Below, piece by piece: positions 15,763 to 24,132 of a DNA stretch of 64,000 nucleotides; the first letter of the stretch is position 1; the number at the start of each line of letters is the position of its first letter. The stretch is from Sulfurospirillum sp. Its GTDB lineage: Bacteria > Campylobacterota > Campylobacteria > Campylobacterales > Sulfurospirillaceae. The DNA is taken from contig JADGDR010000007.1 in the NCBI GenBank assembly GCA_016744795.1, forward strand, positions 1-64,000. The letters run 5' to 3'. The notes below the pieces were generated by a model. That model saw only the letters and a list, made by a program, of their open reading frames with translations. It ran no database searches and was not told the DNA's origin. Both the position numbers and the translations under genes were made by a program.

Positions 15763-17211
15763 ATGATTGATTACACAAAAAAATTAACCTTAGATAGAGA
15801 ATTTTACCCTTCAACAGATATTGACATTTCTATAGAAAGTGACAGAGGTCGCATACTCTCAGCTCCTGCTCTTAGACGTCTACAAAAGCGTACACAAGTA
15901 TTTGCACTTGAACTAAATGCTTCTATACGAACACGGCTTACTCATTCACTAGAAGTTTCTCAAAATGCTCGTTTTATAACAAAAACAATTTTAACTAAAC
16001 TAAAAAAACAGGGCTTAGAAAAATACAAACTTCAAGAGTTGGAGAATGCTTTTGTATCAACTGCGGAAATGACAAGCTTACTTCATGACATTGGTAATCC
16101 TCCTTTTGGGCATTTTGCAGAACAGACCATAAATAAGTGGCTAAAAAACAATGCTTTAAATATTTTAAATGGATTTACATGTAATAGTGAAAAAGTGCAA
16201 GAACTAAAAGAAAAACTAGGCAAAGATATATGCAACTACGACGGCAATGCACAAGCTCTGCGTGTCATAACCAAGCTTCAAAGATTAAACCTTTCATATA
16301 CACAAATTTTGTCAGTACTTAAGTACACTAGAGGTGCATATGAAAATATACCTTCAAAAGATGATAATTTAAATTACCTAAAGAAGAAACCAGGCTTTTA
16401 CTATAGTGAAAAAGAATTTATTCAAAAAATTCAAAAAACTTTACATGTAAAGAGTGGGCATAGGTTCCCTATAACCTATATTATGGAGGCTGCTGATGAT
16501 ATATCATATTTGACTGCTGACTTGGAAGACTCTGTAGAAAAAGGGATATTAAGCCTTGATGATGTCTACAATCTTATAAAAAAAGAGTGCGAAAAAGAAA
16601 AGGAAGACTATCTTTTAGAAGTAATTCAAAAAAGATACGACCAAGCAAAAAAAAACGATGAGCCTTATCAATTTAGCATGTTTTTTACTCTAGTAAGAGC
16701 AAAATTAGTAACTTCATTAGTTTACCATGTAGTAGATATTTATATAGACAATCATGAAGATATTTTTAATGGAAAGTTCAATTCAGCATTACTTGAATAC
16801 GATAAAAAAAGCAAATTTTATAAAGCTATTAAAATCTTACAAAACATATCGAGCAAGTATATTTATCAAGATAAAAGTGTGCAAACATTGGAACTTCAAG
16901 GTTATGCCATCATCAATGGTTTACTAGACGTATATAAGCCACTTTTAGAATTAAACTCTGATGATTTTAAAACATTATTACAAGATGATGAAATTGATTG
17001 TTTTATATCTATGCGACTAATAAAAAGAATTTCAGCAAAACAAATTGTTGCATATAGCAATGATGTTAAAAATCTTGATAAAGAAAATTTAGAGTCATTT
17101 AAAATACTTGAGTGGTATCATAGAGTCAGACTTATTGTAGATTACATAAGTGGGATGACAGATGATTTTGCATTAGAGGAGTATAAAACTTTATTATCAA
17201 TTAATAAGTGA
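15763..17211 (+). CDS. dgt: Deoxyguanosinetriphosphate triphosphohydrolase
   Basis: dGTPase, which hydrolyses dGTP to deoxyguanosine and triphosphate and so helps control dNTP pools. The 482-residue length is usual. HD-superfamily metal ligands are visible: His61 in TRLTHSLEV, His108-Asp109 in LLHDIGNPPFGHF, and a late Asp in MEAADDISYLTAD. The opening RGRILSAPALRRLQKRTQVF is characteristic of the family. SD is GAAGGAAAT. Two TTACATGTAA palindromes lie inside at 16175 (frame Thr-Cys-Asn) and 16441 (frame Leu-His-Val). Confidence 0.93.
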   Translation: MIDYTKKLTLDREFYPSTDIDISIESDRGRILSAPALRRLQKRTQVFALELNASIRTRLTHSLEVSQNARFITKTILTKLKKQGLEKYKLQELENAFVSTAEMTSLLHDIGNPPFGHFAEQTINKWLKNNALNILNGFTCNSEKVQELKEKLGKDICNYDGNAQALRVITKLQRLNLSYTQILSVLKYTRGAYENIPSKDDNLNYLKKKPGFYYSEKEFIQKIQKTLHVKSGHRFPITYIMEAADDISYLTADLEDSVEKGILSLDDVYNLIKKECEKEKEDYLLEVIQKRYDQAKKNDEPYQFSMFFTLVRAKLVTSLVYHVVDIYIDNHEDIFNGKFNSALLEYDKKSKFYKAIKILQNISSKYIYQDKSVQTLELQGYAIINGLLDVYKPLLELNSDDFKTLLQDDEIDCFISMRLIKRISAKQIVAYSNDVKNLDKENLESFKILEWYHRVRLIVDYISGMTDDFALEEYKTLLSINK

Positions 17212-17283: not shown

Positions 17284-19263
17284 GTGTTTAGTTCTATTAG
17301 TAAAAAGATGACGTATATACAAGTTACAGTAATTATCGTGGCTATGATAGGTTTTATTACTTTCATAAGTAATTATTTGAATGGTTATATTAAAGAAGAG
17401 ACCAATTTGAAGCTCTCTTCAAGTACAAAACTTGTGGTAGAGATGATTGACACTTATAATAGTGCAATAGAAATTGGAGCTACAAAGGTACTTCATTTGT
17501 TCATAGATGACTTAGGAAGTTTTAGTATTGATTTGGAAAAAAGAGTTAATATAGCTGGTGTATCTACTCCAGTTTTGTACTCTGAGGGAAAGGTTATAAA
17601 CAACAACTTTGAAGCTGTAGATACTTTCAAAAAACAAACAAAAGATGTTGCTACAATCTTTGTAAAAGATGGTGATGATTTTGTACGTATTTCAACATCA
17701 TTACTTAAAGAAAATGGCGAAAGAGCTATTGGTACTTACCTAGGAAAATATAAAAGTGCCGCTTACAAACACATACTTAACAAAGAAATTTACACAGGAA
17801 GTGCAAAACTTTTTGGAAAAGACTACATAACTGTATATGCTCCAATAATTGACTCTAGCAATAATGTAATAGGAATATCCTTTGTAGGTTACGATTTCAC
17901 CAAAGGGTTAGAAGCCTTATCAAAAAAAATAGATAGCATTAAACTAGGTGAAAATGGTTATTTTTATACTATAAATACAAAATATAAAAAATATGATATT
18001 CACAAAAATAAAAAAGGACAAAATATTGTTTCTGATATAACAAATCAAATTATAGAAAAAAAGAATGGTTATATGGAATACAAAGAAAATGGTTTACACA
18101 AAGCGGTTCAATTTGTCACATTTGAAAAATGGAATTGGATACTTGTAGGAGAAGCAAACTTAGCTGACTTTGAAAAGGCAAATACACGATTAAGAACATA
18201 TCTTATCATAGCTGCCATAATTATAACACTGATTATAATGCTTATTACTTGGATAGTTGTTAAAAAAACAGTTTCTAATCCACTAAATGATTTGATAAAT
18301 AGAACTAGAAGTCTTTCAAGTGGTGATGGTGATCTTACAAGAAAACTAGATATTTTTAGTAAAGACGAAATTGCACAAGCTAGTGTACAAATAAATAATT
18401 TTATAGAAAAAGTAAGAATACTTATAGCTGATGCAAAAAATCTATCAAGTGAAAACTCGTCTATAGCACATGAACTTTCAACTACTTCATTAGAAGTTGG
18501 CAAACTAGTAGAAGAATCAACTTCCATAGTCAACAATACAACACAAGATGCCTGTGTAATACAAGAGGAAATGACAAGTAGTATAGATGATGCTAAATTA
18601 TCTAAAGAAGATTTAATAAAAGCAAATATATCACTAAAAGAAGCTAATGAAGCAATTTTTAGTTTGACCAAAGACATACAAGTAAGTGCAGCAACAGAGA
18701 TAGAACTAGCTGGTAAAATACAACAGCTTAGTAGCGATACTGAACAAGTAAAAGATGTACTTCTTGTTATAAGTGACATTGCAGACCAAACAAATCTTCT
18801 AGCATTAAATGCTGCAATAGAAGCCGCAAGAGCAGGAGACCATGGACGAGGGTTTGCCGTTGTTGCAGATGAAGTACGAAAACTTGCAGAAAGAACTCAA
18901 AAAAGCCTAATTGAAATAAATGCCACAATAAATGTTATAGTTCAATCAATTATGGACTCAAGTGAACAAATGACAAATAATAGTAAAAAAGTAGAAGAGT
19001 TAAGCTATACAGCTGTAAGTGTAGAAGAGAAGATAAATGGACTTTCAACAGTTATGGGAAGCGCTACACAAATGGCAGATAAAACTGTAAATAATTATGT
19101 CAAAACAGGAGATGAAATAAGCAGTATTATCAAAAGTATTGCAGATATAAACGGACTATCAACTCAAAATACAAGAAGTGTTGAAGAGATTGCAGGAGCA
19201 GCTGAACACATGAACGATATGACTGAAACACTTAACAATAAACTTTCAGAATTTAAAACTTGA
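17284..19263 (+). CDS. Methyl-accepting chemotaxis protein with double Cache sensor
   Basis: A 659-residue chemoreceptor. An N-terminal helix (about 10-30), a periplasmic region (31-300) of Cache3/Cache2 type ([15 protein letters not shown], then [16 protein letters not shown]), a second membrane helix ([20 protein letters not shown]), a HAMP domain, and the signalling hairpin tip [21 protein letters not shown]. Cache receptors of this build commonly sense small organic acids or amino acids; the ligand here is unknown. Start is GTG with AAAGGTTGGATA upstream. It is convergent with the acyl-synthase gene, separated by a long hairpin. Confidence 0.93.
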
Positions 19264-19280: not shown

Positions 19281-19343
19281 AATAGTCTATGTGAAAATTT
19301 TATCCGTAAAATACATACGGATAAAAAATTTCACATCACTATT
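19281..19343. terminator. Long bidirectional hairpin between chemoreceptor and acyl-synthase genes
   Basis: TGTGAAAATTTTATCCGTA (from 19290) pairs with the complementary arm ending at about 19334, an imperfect stem near 19-20 bp with a short loop, extended by outer AATAG/CTATT. AT-rich flanks give a T-tract in either direction. Confidence 0.65.
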
Positions 19344-20083
19344 TAGTTTAAAAAAGATCTCTTAAAAAACTTAGATGCTTCATATGGATTCCAAGAGATT
19401 ATTAAAAATGGAACTTCTATATGACCATAAGAATCTAGCTCTTTTTCAATGTGGATTCCTCCAAATTTTGAGTACATTTTAAAATGCTCTTCTCTTATGC
19501 CAGAAACTACTAAATCTGCACTATTGTTAGTAGTAATCTCATGAAAAGCTCTCATTATATTTTTAAAATCAAAACTCAATTTAGTTGAATCTTTTTTTAT
19601 AGTAAATCTAGAAGTTTCACATAGTTTTATATTTTTTTTTCTAAGATAATCAAAAGAGAACTTTTCTTCACTTGGTAATTTATGCTTTGAATCAAATATA
19701 ATTCTTGAAGTACCAGTATATTCCTTGTTTTTTTTACAATAAACTATTGCAGAATTATGATCATATTTATCGAAGTTAAGTCCTTCTATAGTATCAGGAA
19801 ACTCTTCTTGATACTCTATACTTGTATACACATCACTTCTTAGTTTAAAAACTTCTATAAGATCTTCCGCGGTTGTTGTAAGTTGATAATGTGGATTTTG
19901 TCTATCCCAATCTATATTTTTATTAAAAAATATTGCTTTGTCTATAGTCTCTTCTAAAAAAACTCTTGTCGTAAAAAGTTCTAAAATCCTGTTTTGCTCT
20001 TCTACCTCTATTCTCTCATATACACTTTTTTGTATAACTCCGCGTAGTTCATTCAATGCACAATTTTTGTTTAGACTTACCAT
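19343..20083 (-). CDS. LuxI/FeeM-like N-acyl amino acid synthase (GNAT fold)
   Basis: A 246-residue protein whose middle follows the template shared by acyl-homoserine-lactone synthases and N-acyl amino acid synthases. Seen: LRSDVY (Arg82), NFDKYDHNS (Asp105, Asp108), the YTGTSRIIF strand (Arg127) and LCETSRFTI (Glu156, Arg159), the last matching the E-x-S-R-F element of LuxI-type enzymes. These enzymes move an acyl chain from ACP or CoA to an amino-acid-derived amine. About 70 extra residues precede the domain. The gene is last in a leftward operon with a histidine kinase and a response regulator (63-base gap). It may instead be one of the exosortase-associated acyltransferases, which share the fold; no exosortase is seen here. 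Confidence 0.65.
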   Translation of the reverse strand: MVSLNKNCALNELRGVIQKSVYERIEVEEQNRILELFTTRVFLEETIDKAIFFNKNIDWDRQNPHYQLTTTAEDLIEVFKLRSDVYTSIEYQEEFPDTIEGLNFDKYDHNSAIVYCKKNKEYTGTSRIIFDSKHKLPSEEKFSFDYLRKKNIKLCETSRFTIKKDSTKLSFDFKNIMRAFHEITTNNSADLVVSGIREEHFKMYSKFGGIHIEKELDSYGHIEVPFLIISWNPYEASKFFKRSFLN

Positions 20084-20146
20084 TTTTTATCCTTTGTAGG
20101 ATAAAGTTTACTCTAGCATCGTCACAGTAAGCGTCACACAATAAAA

Positions 20147-20830
20147 TCAAAAAATGGGGGTAAGTCTACATCCTAAAGTTGGTATAGTTTCTATAAGTTT
20201 ATATTCAAGTTTTGCTCTTAGTCTATAAACAAGAGTTCTTAGTGTACTGTCAGATATAAAGTTATCAAACCATATAAGAGACTCTAACTGACGAAAAGGA
20301 ACAATATTTCCATTTGCTTCTACAAGTATGCTTAAAAGCATTCTCTCTTTTTTACTCAACGATATAAGCATATTTTTATAAAAAAGAATCTCATTTTTCA
20401 AATCAAAATAATAATCAAATCCCAAACTTATGGCTTCTTTATCTATCTCTATTTTGCTGAATTGATTCATCTTATATAAGCCCAAAAAAATAGTGGATTT
20501 TAACTCTTCTCGTTTAAATGGTTTTAAAAGATACCCTATAGGGTTGGTTTCTACCGCTCTACTTATCGTCTTATTATCTGAAAAGGCCGTTAGATATATA
20601 ATGGGGATATTTGCTATTTTTTGTATTTCTTTAACTGTTTCTATGCCATCTTTACTGCCAACAAGATTTATATCTGTTAAAAGTATATCAGGTTTGCAGT
20701 TTTTTACACTATTAAGTGCTTCATCATAATTAGTGGCACTATCAGTCACTTCAAAACCAAGTTTTTCTAAGGCACTCTTTATATCAAGAGCCACTATGGT
20801 TTCATCCTCAATAATGAGTATCTTAGTCAC
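20147..20830 (-). CDS. Response regulator, REC plus winged-helix DNA-binding domain
   Basis: A 227-residue regulator. The REC domain has the acidic pair in IIEDE, phospho-acceptor Asp53 in LLTDINL, Thr in YLTAF and Lys in LLKPFKR. The C-terminal 90 residues form an OmpR-type winged helix (SKKERMLLSILVEANGNIV, then DSTLRTLVYRLRAKL and TIPTLGCRL). The start overlaps the kinase stop by 8 bases, so it is surely the partner of that kinase. It likely controls the operon itself or the acyl-synthase gene 63 bases downstream. Confidence 0.92.
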   Translation of the reverse strand: MTKILIIEDETIVALDIKSALEKLGFEVTDSATNYDEALNSVKNCKPDILLTDINLVGSKDGIETVKEIQKIANIPIIYLTAFSDNKTISRAVETNPIGYLLKPFKREELKSTIFLGLYKMNQFSKIEIDKEAISLGFDYYFDLKNEILFYKNMLISLSKKERMLLSILVEANGNIVPFRQLESLIWFDNFISDSTLRTLVYRLRAKLEYKLIETIPTLGCRLTPIF

Positions 20831-22658
20831 TTTCTTTCCAGTTAATAGTGACTCTTACACCATCTAATGAATTAACTTTGATATCTCCTTTCAACTGTCT
20901 TTTTGCTAGTGCATTGACTAAATTTAGTCCTAAAGATGTAAATTTTGCATCTGAATCATATCCTATGCCATCATCTCTAATATATAACGTATAGTTATTA
21001 TTCTCTTTTTTGAGGCTTACATTTATAGTTCCATCTTCTTTAGGAAAAGCATATTTAAAAGAGTTCGTTATAAGCTCATTTAGTATAAGCCCACAATATA
21101 TAGCCTCTTCCATCTTTAATTTTGCTTTTATATCTAAGTTTATATTTAACTCATTGTGATAACTATCTTTAATACCTTCTATTAAAAGTTCAAAATACTC
21201 ATAAGTATTTATGTGAGTAGTATTCTCTTGTTTATAAAGTAACTCATGAAGATGACTCATGGCGCTTATTCTGTTTTGAATTGTGAGTAAAACATCTTGA
21301 AGGTTAGCATCTTTTACCTTGTCTTTTTGCAATCTTATGAGAGAAACTATTGTCTGCATATTATTTTTTACTCTATGATTTAACTCTTTTAAAAGTAATT
21401 TTTTCTCCTCTAAAGCAGTATTTAAATGTTGTGTTTTTTGGCCAACTTGTACCTCTAGTCTTTTTGTCTCATTTTCTTGTTGGAGTGCAAGTTTTTTATT
21501 TACTCGCACCTTATCTTCTTGGAGTTGTTTTATTCTATATGCCAAAGCAATAGAAAATATAGTCGCTTCAAAAAGTAAAGAGCCCTCTATGTAGTATGAG
21601 ATATATGCAAATATATCGAATATTCCAGAGCTAGACAAAAACATAAATACCACTGCCATAGATATTGCCAACCAACCAAACAAAATAAAATAAGCTTGTC
21701 GATTTTTTCTTAGTGCAGCATAGATAGTTATACCTAAAAGATAAACCATAAGAATGATTGGAAGTAAATTTCTAAACTCGTTAAACCCCTCCGCAATAAT
21801 AAATATTGTCACTGAAATAGGGAGTATCAGTATAAATATATTGAGCACTTTATTGAGTTTTGTATACTGTTTCATCTGCAAAAATGTCTTTGTGAAAAGA
21901 GATAGAGCAAATATAGGAAAAGCCGCAAGAAGTGAAGCAAAGGTTATTATATAAATAATCCACGTGTAATTTAGAAAATATATATTAGCAATGCCTACGT
22001 ATATGGCATGATGAGTAGAAACTCCTACAACATATAAAAAATAAAACAGATAACTAATGTCCCTCGTAAAAAAGTATATAAATAGATTATATATTCCAAG
22101 TATCAGCATAGCTCCAAAAAAAAGTGCCAAAATAACTTGATGTTTTATCTCTTTTTTATAAAAGTTATTAATCTCCCACATATTTAGTTTAATAATAAGA
22201 GTAGTTATTTCAGAAGACGCTCGAATGTAGTATGTTTTTTTTTCATGTGGGTTTATAGTTATTTCAAAGGTAGGGCTTAGTGTTTTTCTATCTTTGTGTA
22301 CATTAAATAAGCCTTCTTTTTCAACTTTGTAGTTTTTATCTGGATTATAAAACTGAACGTCTGTTGTAAGAGTATTGTCATACTCTAAAATTTTTGAGAC
22401 AGTTTTATTAGTATCATTTGTTAAAGTAAACTTCACCCAAACAGCAAAATTAGGTGAATAGCCGTATGCTAAAAGCTTTTTGTCATTTTTTTTAAACTCT
22501 ATATTTTTTTGCAAAATATCTTCTATTTGTAGCAAACTAGTTTTATCTATATAGACTTTAGAATATTTTAATAAATCGACATGATTTTTATTATTTATGG
22601 GTTGTGCATAAATAAAAGTAGTTAATAGAATCATAAAAAGTATTTTAAAAAAATTCAT
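20823..22658 (-). CDS. 7TMR-DISM histidine kinase (HisKA_2 type)
   Basis: The product has a signal peptide, a periplasmic DISMED2 beta-sandwich (about 25-170), a seven-helix 7TMR-DISM membrane unit (about 175-380), a coiled coil, a HisKA_2 domain with the phospho-His in LKELNHRVKNNMQ (about residue 428), and a HATPase_c domain (NELITNSFKYAF N-box, DDGIGYDSD G-box). 7TMR-DISM proteins bind carbohydrates or other small molecules in the periplasm. I chose ATG 22658; the in-frame ATG at 22670 overlaps the AAAGG ribosome site. First gene of the kinase/regulator/acyl-synthase operon. Ligand unknown. Confidence 0.9.
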   Translation of the reverse strand: MNFFKILFMILLTTFIYAQPINNKNHVDLLKYSKVYIDKTSLLQIEDILQKNIEFKKNDKKLLAYGYSPNFAVWVKFTLTNDTNKTVSKILEYDNTLTTDVQFYNPDKNYKVEKEGLFNVHKDRKTLSPTFEITINPHEKKTYYIRASSEITTLIIKLNMWEINNFYKKEIKHQVILALFFGAMLILGIYNLFIYFFTRDISYLFYFLYVVGVSTHHAIYVGIANIYFLNYTWIIYIITFASLLAAFPIFALSLFTKTFLQMKQYTKLNKVLNIFILILPISVTIFIIAEGFNEFRNLLPIILMVYLLGITIYAALRKNRQAYFILFGWLAISMAVVFMFLSSSGIFDIFAYISYYIEGSLLFEATIFSIALAYRIKQLQEDKVRVNKKLALQQENETKRLEVQVGQKTQHLNTALEEKKLLLKELNHRVKNNMQTIVSLIRLQKDKVKDANLQDVLLTIQNRISAMSHLHELLYKQENTTHINTYEYFELLIEGIKDSYHNELNINLDIKAKLKMEEAIYCGLILNELITNSFKYAFPKEDGTINVSLKKENNNYTLYIRDDGIGYDSDAKFTSLGLNLVNALAKRQLKGDIKVNSLDGVRVTINWKESD

Positions 22659-22854
22659 ACACAAATCCATCCTTTCATCCGCTTTTTATTATACTCAATT
22701 TTTTGCTATTACTTTCTTTATAAACTCTACTAGTCTGTCTCCATTTTTTATACTTTTATATTCTTCAAAAAATTTACTGCTTCATATTTAAATTAATATA
22801 ATTATTTTTTTTATAAATTTTCCTTATTTAGCCTCTATTTTATCTTAAAAAAGA

Positions 22855-23609: not shown

Positions 23610-23643
23610 TTTACATGTAAAGGTTTTACCCTTTACATGTAAG
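23610..23643. terminator. Hairpin made of two TTACATGTAA palindromes
   Basis: Copies at 23611 and 23633 with their flanks form a 13-bp perfect stem (arms 23611-23623 and 23630-23642, loop TTTTAC), plus a wobble pair. It lies between the convergent yebC and asparaginase-like genes and covers the last codons of the latter. No T-tract follows in either direction, so it may stall or protect RNA ends rather than act as a classic terminator. Confidence 0.6.
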
Positions 23644-24132
23644 CCTTTGAAAAACTCCAATCTCTCTATTTTTATATACTTTTTTGTATTTATCAATCAA
23701 ACCATGCATAGATATATAAATACCATATTTAGTATCGTTTAATAAATAACCAAGAGACATAGACAAATTTGAATTAGCTTCTACATTATCTATGCTATAA
23801 GGGACCATAGCCCCTGTTAAAAGTATTGTTTTATCAGCTATTTTAGTCTGTAAATACTCGGCAGTTTTATCTATAGTATCAGTGCCATGAATTATAAGTA
23901 TTTTGTTTTGTTTAGATTTCACTATAAGTTTTGCTATCTCTTTTCTGTCCTCCTCAAGCATATCTAAACTATCTTTATGAATAATATTTTTTATTTCATA
24001 TTTTAAATTATAAAAATACTTAAGTATATTTTCCACAGAGATAGAATCGTTTGGCACTTCTAACTCTCCTTTTAAAGGATTATATCTTTTATTAAAAGTT
24101 CCTCCTGTATTAATAATCAATATATCTTCCAA
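23626..24132 (-). CDS. Half-length asparaginase-like protein
   Basis: The 168-residue product matches only the N-terminal domain of L-asparaginase (families are about 330 residues). The two catalytic threonine segments are present, INTGGTFNK near residue 8 and IIHGTDTIDKTAEYL with its Thr-Asp and Lys, as is LLTGAMVP. The C-terminal domain that completes the dimeric site is missing. No remnant of it follows, and the next bases are the palindrome hairpin, which supplies the final RLTCKG. Small asparaginase-domain proteins of this size do occur, so it may be functional; amide hydrolysis is possible but unproven. Confidence 0.7.
   Translation of the reverse strand: MEDILIINTGGTFNKRYNPLKGELEVPNDSISVENILKYFYNLKYEIKNIIHKDSLDMLEEDRKEIAKLIVKSKQNKILIIHGTDTIDKTAEYLQTKIADKTILLTGAMVPYSIDNVEANSNLSMSLGYLLNDTKYGIYISMHGLIDKYKKVYKNREIGVFQRLTCKG

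Follow-up and report, generated by a model that had tools for sequence, protein, structure and literature searches.

The window analysed here is a stretch of 64,000 nucleotides from the genome of a Sulfurospirillum sp. (GenBank assembly GCA_016744795.1, contig JADGDR010000007.1), and it carries, on the minus strand, genes for a sensor histidine kinase, a response regulator and an acyl synthase of the FeeM family. We found that these three genes are a conserved, mobile three-component module of Campylobacterota, and that a predicted operator, a direct repeat upstream of the synthase gene, very probably places the synthase under the regulator's control. The original prediction for this locus had described a kinase gene, an overlap of 8 base pairs, a regulator gene, a gap of 63 bases and a gene for a 246-residue protein, and all of these lie where it placed them; the TGTGACG-N5-TGTGACG operator upstream of the synthase is new to the present analysis. 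The features of the locus are as follows.

20823..22670, minus strand: 7TMR-DISM sensor histidine kinase, 615 residues (an alternative ATG is at 22658)
20147..20830, minus strand: response regulator, 227 residues, GTG start, receiver plus OmpR/PhoB-type winged helix
20120..20138, minus strand: predicted regulator-binding site TGTGACGCTTACTGTGACG, a direct repeat of period 12 that ends 36 nucleotides before the synthase ATG
20086..20105, minus strand: leader hairpin TTTATCCT-ACAA-AGGATAAA, covering the synthase Shine-Dalgarno sequence
19343..20083, minus strand: FeeM-family acyl synthase, 246 residues, an N-terminal extension followed by a GNAT-like core at about residues 77-228

The kinase and regulator genes overlap at 20823-20830, and the operator lies inside the gap between regulator and synthase (20084-20146). 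The kinase is composed of a periplasmic 7TMR-DISMED2 domain, a 7TMR-DISM_7TM domain, a HisKA_2/HWE domain and HATPase_c, with its H-box and ATP-binding motifs intact, while the regulator combines Response_reg and Trans_reg_C domains, D53 and K103 of the receiver being invariant.

Conservation of the module

Our sample consisted of 397 Campylobacterota genomes (G labels denote genomes and L labels loci; the window's genome is G000). FeeM-family genes were present in 31 of them, 23 being of the window's type, and the matches in the other 8, such as L039 and L057, were weak or came from other lineages. Linkage was examined at 25 loci, namely the 23 of the window's type plus G041 and L001 (Arcobacter sp. 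31_11_sub10_T18). A kinase and regulator of the same families adjoin the synthase at 23 of the 25, in at least five arrangements, so that the three-gene synteny which the original prediction had proposed to seek in other Campylobacterota does exist; the flanks vary from locus to locus, and nothing else is widely conserved alongside. The exceptions are G036, where an intact synthase lies about 32 kilobases from the kinase/regulator pair on the same contig, and G041 (L009), which has kept only the regulator and in which the synthase has an in-frame stop.

The order kinase, regulator, synthase is that of the window and of most of family f7 (Arcobacteraceae), and at L045, L046, L047, L049, L050 and L051 it is followed by one or two extra copies of the regulator. 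The order at L001 is regulator, synthase, kinase; the kinase-regulator pair is convergent with the synthase in G029, G012, G019, G372 and G387, and the synthase is divergent from the kinase in G417 and G397. The earlier description of the three genes as one operon thus fits their order in the window, but it does not hold as a conserved trait, the synthase being convergent or divergent to the pair in other genomes and having a predicted operator of its own.

Co-occurrence is equally strict. Regulators of this clade are present in all 23 synthase genomes of the 397 sampled (Fisher p=2e-34), a stringent kinase search was concordant with the co-occurrence of synthase and regulator, and no intact synthase was found in any sampled genome lacking the kinase and regulator. 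The kinases of the synthase loci form one clade (27 rows, support 97/95), in which 23 adjoin a synthase and the remaining four belong to G036 and to three Aliarcobacter without a synthase.

Plasmids of Aliarcobacter cryaerophilus and of A. faecis also carry the module, their synthase being annotated as a hypothetical protein; no relative was found among viral contigs. The A. cryaerophilus plasmids pACRY43158 and pCNAC48 (L073, L074) have the whole kinase-regulator-synthase unit aboard, and on pCNAC48 the macrolide-resistance genes mef(A), msr(D) and ere(B), together with transposases, lie directly downstream of it.

A predicted operator and leader hairpin upstream of the synthase

The direct repeat was found by aligning the sequences upstream of the synthase starts. 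Searched for as TGTGACR-N(4-5)-TGTGACR with at most two mismatches, it lies upstream of 19 of the 21 synthase genes (expectation from shuffles, 0.03), and in 18 of these 19 it ends 36-45 nucleotides before the ATG; at the exception, L001, the best-scoring copy ends 139 nucleotides upstream and a second copy lies nearer. By way of this conserved repeat, at its near-fixed distance from the gene, the regulator very probably governs the synthase, as the original prediction had proposed.

Within the clade, the exact pattern of 12-base-pair period was counted 104 times, in 27 genomes, and a reversed-pattern control once; outside the clade the pattern occurred at 23 sites in 371 genomes, close to the 16 of the control. 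About half of those 23 sites are in genomes with a sister kinase and regulator, several of them intergenic and beside the sister kinase, and overall the presence of the motif tracks the presence of the regulator clade (p=3e-24). Three genomes of the clade, G302, G344 and G349, lack the 12-base-pair form and have instead a repeat of period 11 (8 sites, control 0); their regulators form one subclade (support 100/100), with which the change of period from 12 to 11 coincides exactly. Since operator period and regulator phylogeny shift together, the regulator is the likely binder.

Neither the window's genome nor G036 has a consensus operator site other than that of the synthase promoter, and given the distance of the kinase/regulator pair in G036, regulation there would be in trans, if the operator is read correctly. 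We infer that the operator serves activation and not repression, and the kinase and regulator very probably switch the synthase on. A prophage-like region elsewhere in the window's genome (G000:C7:117550-117815, L164) contains two exact repeats in divergent orientation about 230 base pairs apart (sites 117550 and 117797), which have a spacer unlike the consensus and which we treated as doubtful.

Between the operator and the synthase start, the leader of the window folds into the hairpin listed above (minimum free energy -7.4, z -2.1). Most of the synthase leaders form such a hairpin over the Shine-Dalgarno sequence. Folding energy averaged -8.2 kcal/mol in the synthase leaders, and in 487 control leaders that have a Shine-Dalgarno sequence the average was -2.7 kcal/mol (p=2.5e-9). 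The mean z of 20 synthase leaders against shuffles was -3.3; five of the 20 (L001, L008, L010, L011 and L055) folded no better than shuffles. The stem sequences vary by lineage and the shifting stems could not be aligned by MAFFT, and the folding claim is accordingly made sequence by sequence. These energies suggest that a hairpin over the ribosome-binding site damps translation of the synthase.

The synthase belongs to the FeeM family

The original prediction had called the 246-residue protein LuxI/FeeM-like, and the FeeM side of that description is well borne out. The window protein matches the Pfam FeeM family (PF21926) with E=1.6e-21 and a score of 77.2 bits, where the cut-off is 27, all 23 relatives match it as well (best E=2.6e-24), and in a profile search of all Protein Data Bank sequences the FeeM structure 2g0b was the sole significant match (E=7e-4). 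An alignment of the 23 relatives, which are 36-75% identical to the window protein, showed the six residues that had been singled out earlier, R82, D105, D108, R127, E156 and R159, to be invariant, as are S158, Y91 and the GG at 208-209; the C-terminal end is conserved and the N-terminal extension is kept in nearly all relatives.

The LuxI-type residues R, DxxD, R and ExxR are therefore present in their order and spacing. In the alignment with 2g0b the Glu is kept by FeeM, and Ser and Gln stand opposite R127 and R159; it is by these two arginines that the full set is LuxI-like. Glu94/Val95/Val96/Gln97 of FeeM have been paired with Glu101/Leu102/Ser103/Arg104 of LasI (PMC9654057). An AlphaFold model built from two sequences (the window's and that of L001) had a predicted local distance difference test score of 34.5 and was unusable for superposition. 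By its sequence, then, the synthase is a member of the FeeM family with an active-site motif closer to that of LuxI than FeeM's own is. It can reasonably be read as an N-acyl transferase dependent on acyl-acyl carrier protein (acyl-ACP), with an amino acid as the most likely acceptor, and its product is probably an N-acyl amino acid.

Other predicted targets of the regulator

In other genomes further repeats are nearly always intergenic, commonly 20-110 nucleotides upstream of a gene and on the sense strand. The list of targets is descriptive and was drawn up by annotation, partly by inspection. Among the defence-type targets are SIR2-TPR, TIR, AbiZ-like, GmrSD and OLD proteins, Gabija GajA with a helicase-like partner gene and, by inspection, SbcD/SbcC-like nucleases; those concerned with competition and secretion comprise a Tle1-type phospholipase, two-partner secretion proteins of the FhaC/FhaB-like kind, a Hint-domain protein, a LapG-type protease and, again by inspection, pseudopilin operons. 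Described in these terms, the targets are of the type governed by population- or danger-sensing systems.

A further target, in G029 and G012, is a biosynthesis-like operon transcribed away from the synthase (L010:2755-8204 and L011:8582-13991), and the intergenic region between the two has operators on each strand. Its genes encode an Asp/Glu-racemase-like protein, one without a clear family and, by inspection, AMP-ligase-like, ATP-grasp-like and glycosyltransferase-like proteins. G356 (L105-L124) has 24 operator sites, the targets of which include SIR2, TIR, AbiZ-like, Tle1 and pseudopilin genes, as well as a stand-alone winged-helix protein of 101 residues at an operator site (L111:6717-7019).

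Neighbouring genes

A Cache_3-Cache_2 chemoreceptor gene (17284-19263, plus strand) is convergent with the synthase in the window, and it had been left open earlier whether it belonged to the system. It adjoins no other synthase locus and is a local neighbour that does not belong. A dgt (dGTPase-like) gene recurrently adjoins or neighbours the kinase/regulator locus in several genera (15763-17211 in the window, and L040, L041, L059, L060 and L061). Beyond the kinase, a short open reading frame of 168 residues (23626-24132, minus strand) resembles, by eye, the N-terminal part of an asparaginase and is apparently truncated.

A proposed circuit and its alternatives

The explanation that we favour, to which we give an even chance as a whole, is a regulated acyl synthase acting as a density- or neighbour-sensing circuit with feedback. 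The 7TMR-DISM/HisKA_2 kinase would sense a ligand in the envelope or periplasm and phosphorylate the PhoB-type regulator, which would bind TGTGACR-N5-TGTGACR just upstream of the FeeM-family gene and turn the synthase on. The synthase, as an acyl-ACP-dependent N-acyl synthase whose translation would be further damped by the hairpin, would release an acyl product that the linked kinase senses directly or indirectly, giving positive feedback, and in some lineages the same regulator would also drive genes for competition, secretion and phage defence. That the product is the signal sensed by the linked kinase is a reasonable conjecture, somewhat less probable than the circuit in outline. A bolder and distinctly more tentative proposal is that the module represents an undescribed class of communication in Campylobacterota, in which a 7TMR-DISM kinase has an N-acyl amino acid, or an amide related to one, as its ligand, and in which a circuit carried partly on Aliarcobacter plasmids coordinates weapons, secretion and anti-phage defence through the TGTGAC repeats, with frequent "listen-only" strains from which the synthase has been lost.

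Several observations weigh against feedback by the product. Kinase and regulator of the clade are kept, together with operators, in the absence of a synthase in G073, G349 and G371, and in G397 (L048) the synthase is frameshifted and the kinase and regulator are intact, these four genomes all being Aliarcobacter; none of the sister-clade kinase/regulator pairs is accompanied by an intact synthase. This persistence implies that the kinase probably has a use independent of the synthase product. The synthase may be one of the outputs of a regulator that predates it, or else the synthase-less strains are "listen-only" in the manner of LuxR solos. In the window's genome, which has no consensus target besides the synthase, no downstream response genes were identified, the LuxR-type autoinducer-binding domain (PF03472) is absent from the whole genome in a search whose positive control worked, and at the locus we saw neither an exporter nor a dedicated ACP. 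Because the sister clade has no intact synthase, the distribution suggests that the kinase/regulator pair is older and that the synthase was recruited later. In G293, a sister-clade genome from another family (f8; L169, C61:1-3608), an N-terminal remnant of the synthase lies near a contig end, with a perfect operator 43 nucleotides upstream.

In an alternative reading the synthase is an output enzyme: the kinase would sense envelope stress or neighbours, and an N-acyl amino acid, whether surfactant, antibiotic or aminolipid, would be secreted or held in the membrane alongside the products of competition and defence genes, with no feedback to the kinase. This has a substantial chance of being right, if a little short of even. 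The operator and other targets survive where the synthase has been lost and in the sister clade, those other targets comprise effector, secretion and defence genes, and the known products of FeeM enzymes include antibacterial N-acyl tyrosines (PMC8762209). Against it, the synthase is linked to its sensor at 23 of 25 loci while every other target varies by genome, which would be unusual if it were just one of many outputs; the combined control by operator and hairpin, with its low basal level, resembles a feedback loop, and no other biosynthetic gene is conserved alongside the synthase.

The remaining alternatives concern the identity of the enzyme and of the protein that binds the repeat. The arrangement of a kinase-linked acyl synthase is that of LuxM/LuxN, and the six LuxI catalytic residues and the Ser of E-x-S-R are invariant where FeeM is without two of them, from which one could argue for a kinase-based quorum system whose synthase is of the LuxI type and makes N-acyl-homoserine lactones, a functional analogue of Vibrio LuxM-LuxN. 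We consider this improbable: the window protein has no match to the LuxI family (PF00765) at E<=10 and so falls outside it, the best match among the relatives, of which 7 of 23 gave one, is E=0.0047, compared with values down to 2.6e-24 for FeeM, and the genome is without LuxR. The position about ten residues after the first Arg, which is Trp in LuxI, is Q92 beside the invariant Y91, as judged by spacing only. A weak match to TIGR03694 (30.2 bits) raised the thought of a PEP-CTERM/exosortase-associated acyltransferase acting in surface-protein sorting, but the curated cut-off is 112 bits and exosortase (PF09721) is absent from the window's genome, and we rejected this candidate as barely credible. 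It is also very unlikely that some other regulator, for instance of the Crp/Fnr family, binds the repeat and that the link to the two-component pair is incidental. Sites of that family do begin with TGTGA, the half-site of CRP-type sites, but the motif here is a direct and not an inverted repeat, is nearly confined to genomes with the regulator clade, adjoins the kinase in sister-clade loci that have no synthase, and has a period that follows regulator phylogeny.

Set beside known systems, the favoured circuit shows both likenesses and differences. Its enzyme shares with the N-acyl amino acid synthases (PF21926, 2g0b) the Pfam family, the active-site Glu and the overall core, and differs from them in its N-terminal extension, in R127 and R159 in place of Ser and Gln, in the absence of a fee biosynthetic cluster, and in being tied to a sensor kinase and a regulator with its own predicted operator. 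With LuxI/LuxR quorum sensing the circuit has in common the R/DxxD/R/ExSR spacing and, in all probability, a synthase gene under the system's own regulator; there is no LuxR receptor, however, and sensing would fall to the membrane kinase. In Vibrio LuxM-LuxN and CqsA-CqsS and in Legionella Lqs the genes of autoinducer synthase and membrane histidine kinase likewise lie side by side, but the module has another synthase family, a 7TMR-DISM and HisKA_2 kinase, and a dedicated DNA-binding regulator predicted to act at the synthase promoter. The likeness to PEP-CTERM acyltransferases is one of distant sequence similarity.

We know of no acyl signalling that has been established in Campylobacterota, and a literature search found no paper describing FeeM- or LuxI-type signalling in the phylum; for an epsilonproteobacterial community of vent epibionts, neither luxI nor N-acyl-homoserine lactones were reported (PMC5362221). 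Campylobacterota include food-borne Aliarcobacter and many bacteria of vents and sediments, and for these the module offers a concrete proposed circuit, made up of a sensor and a regulator, an enzyme, a 19-base-pair operator and a predicted regulon. Should the product indeed be the ligand, this would provide a ligand class for 7TMR-DISM kinases and an acyl signal tied to defence and competition genes, and even without a role in signalling, the regulator and its operator would form a family that predicts targets across the phylum.

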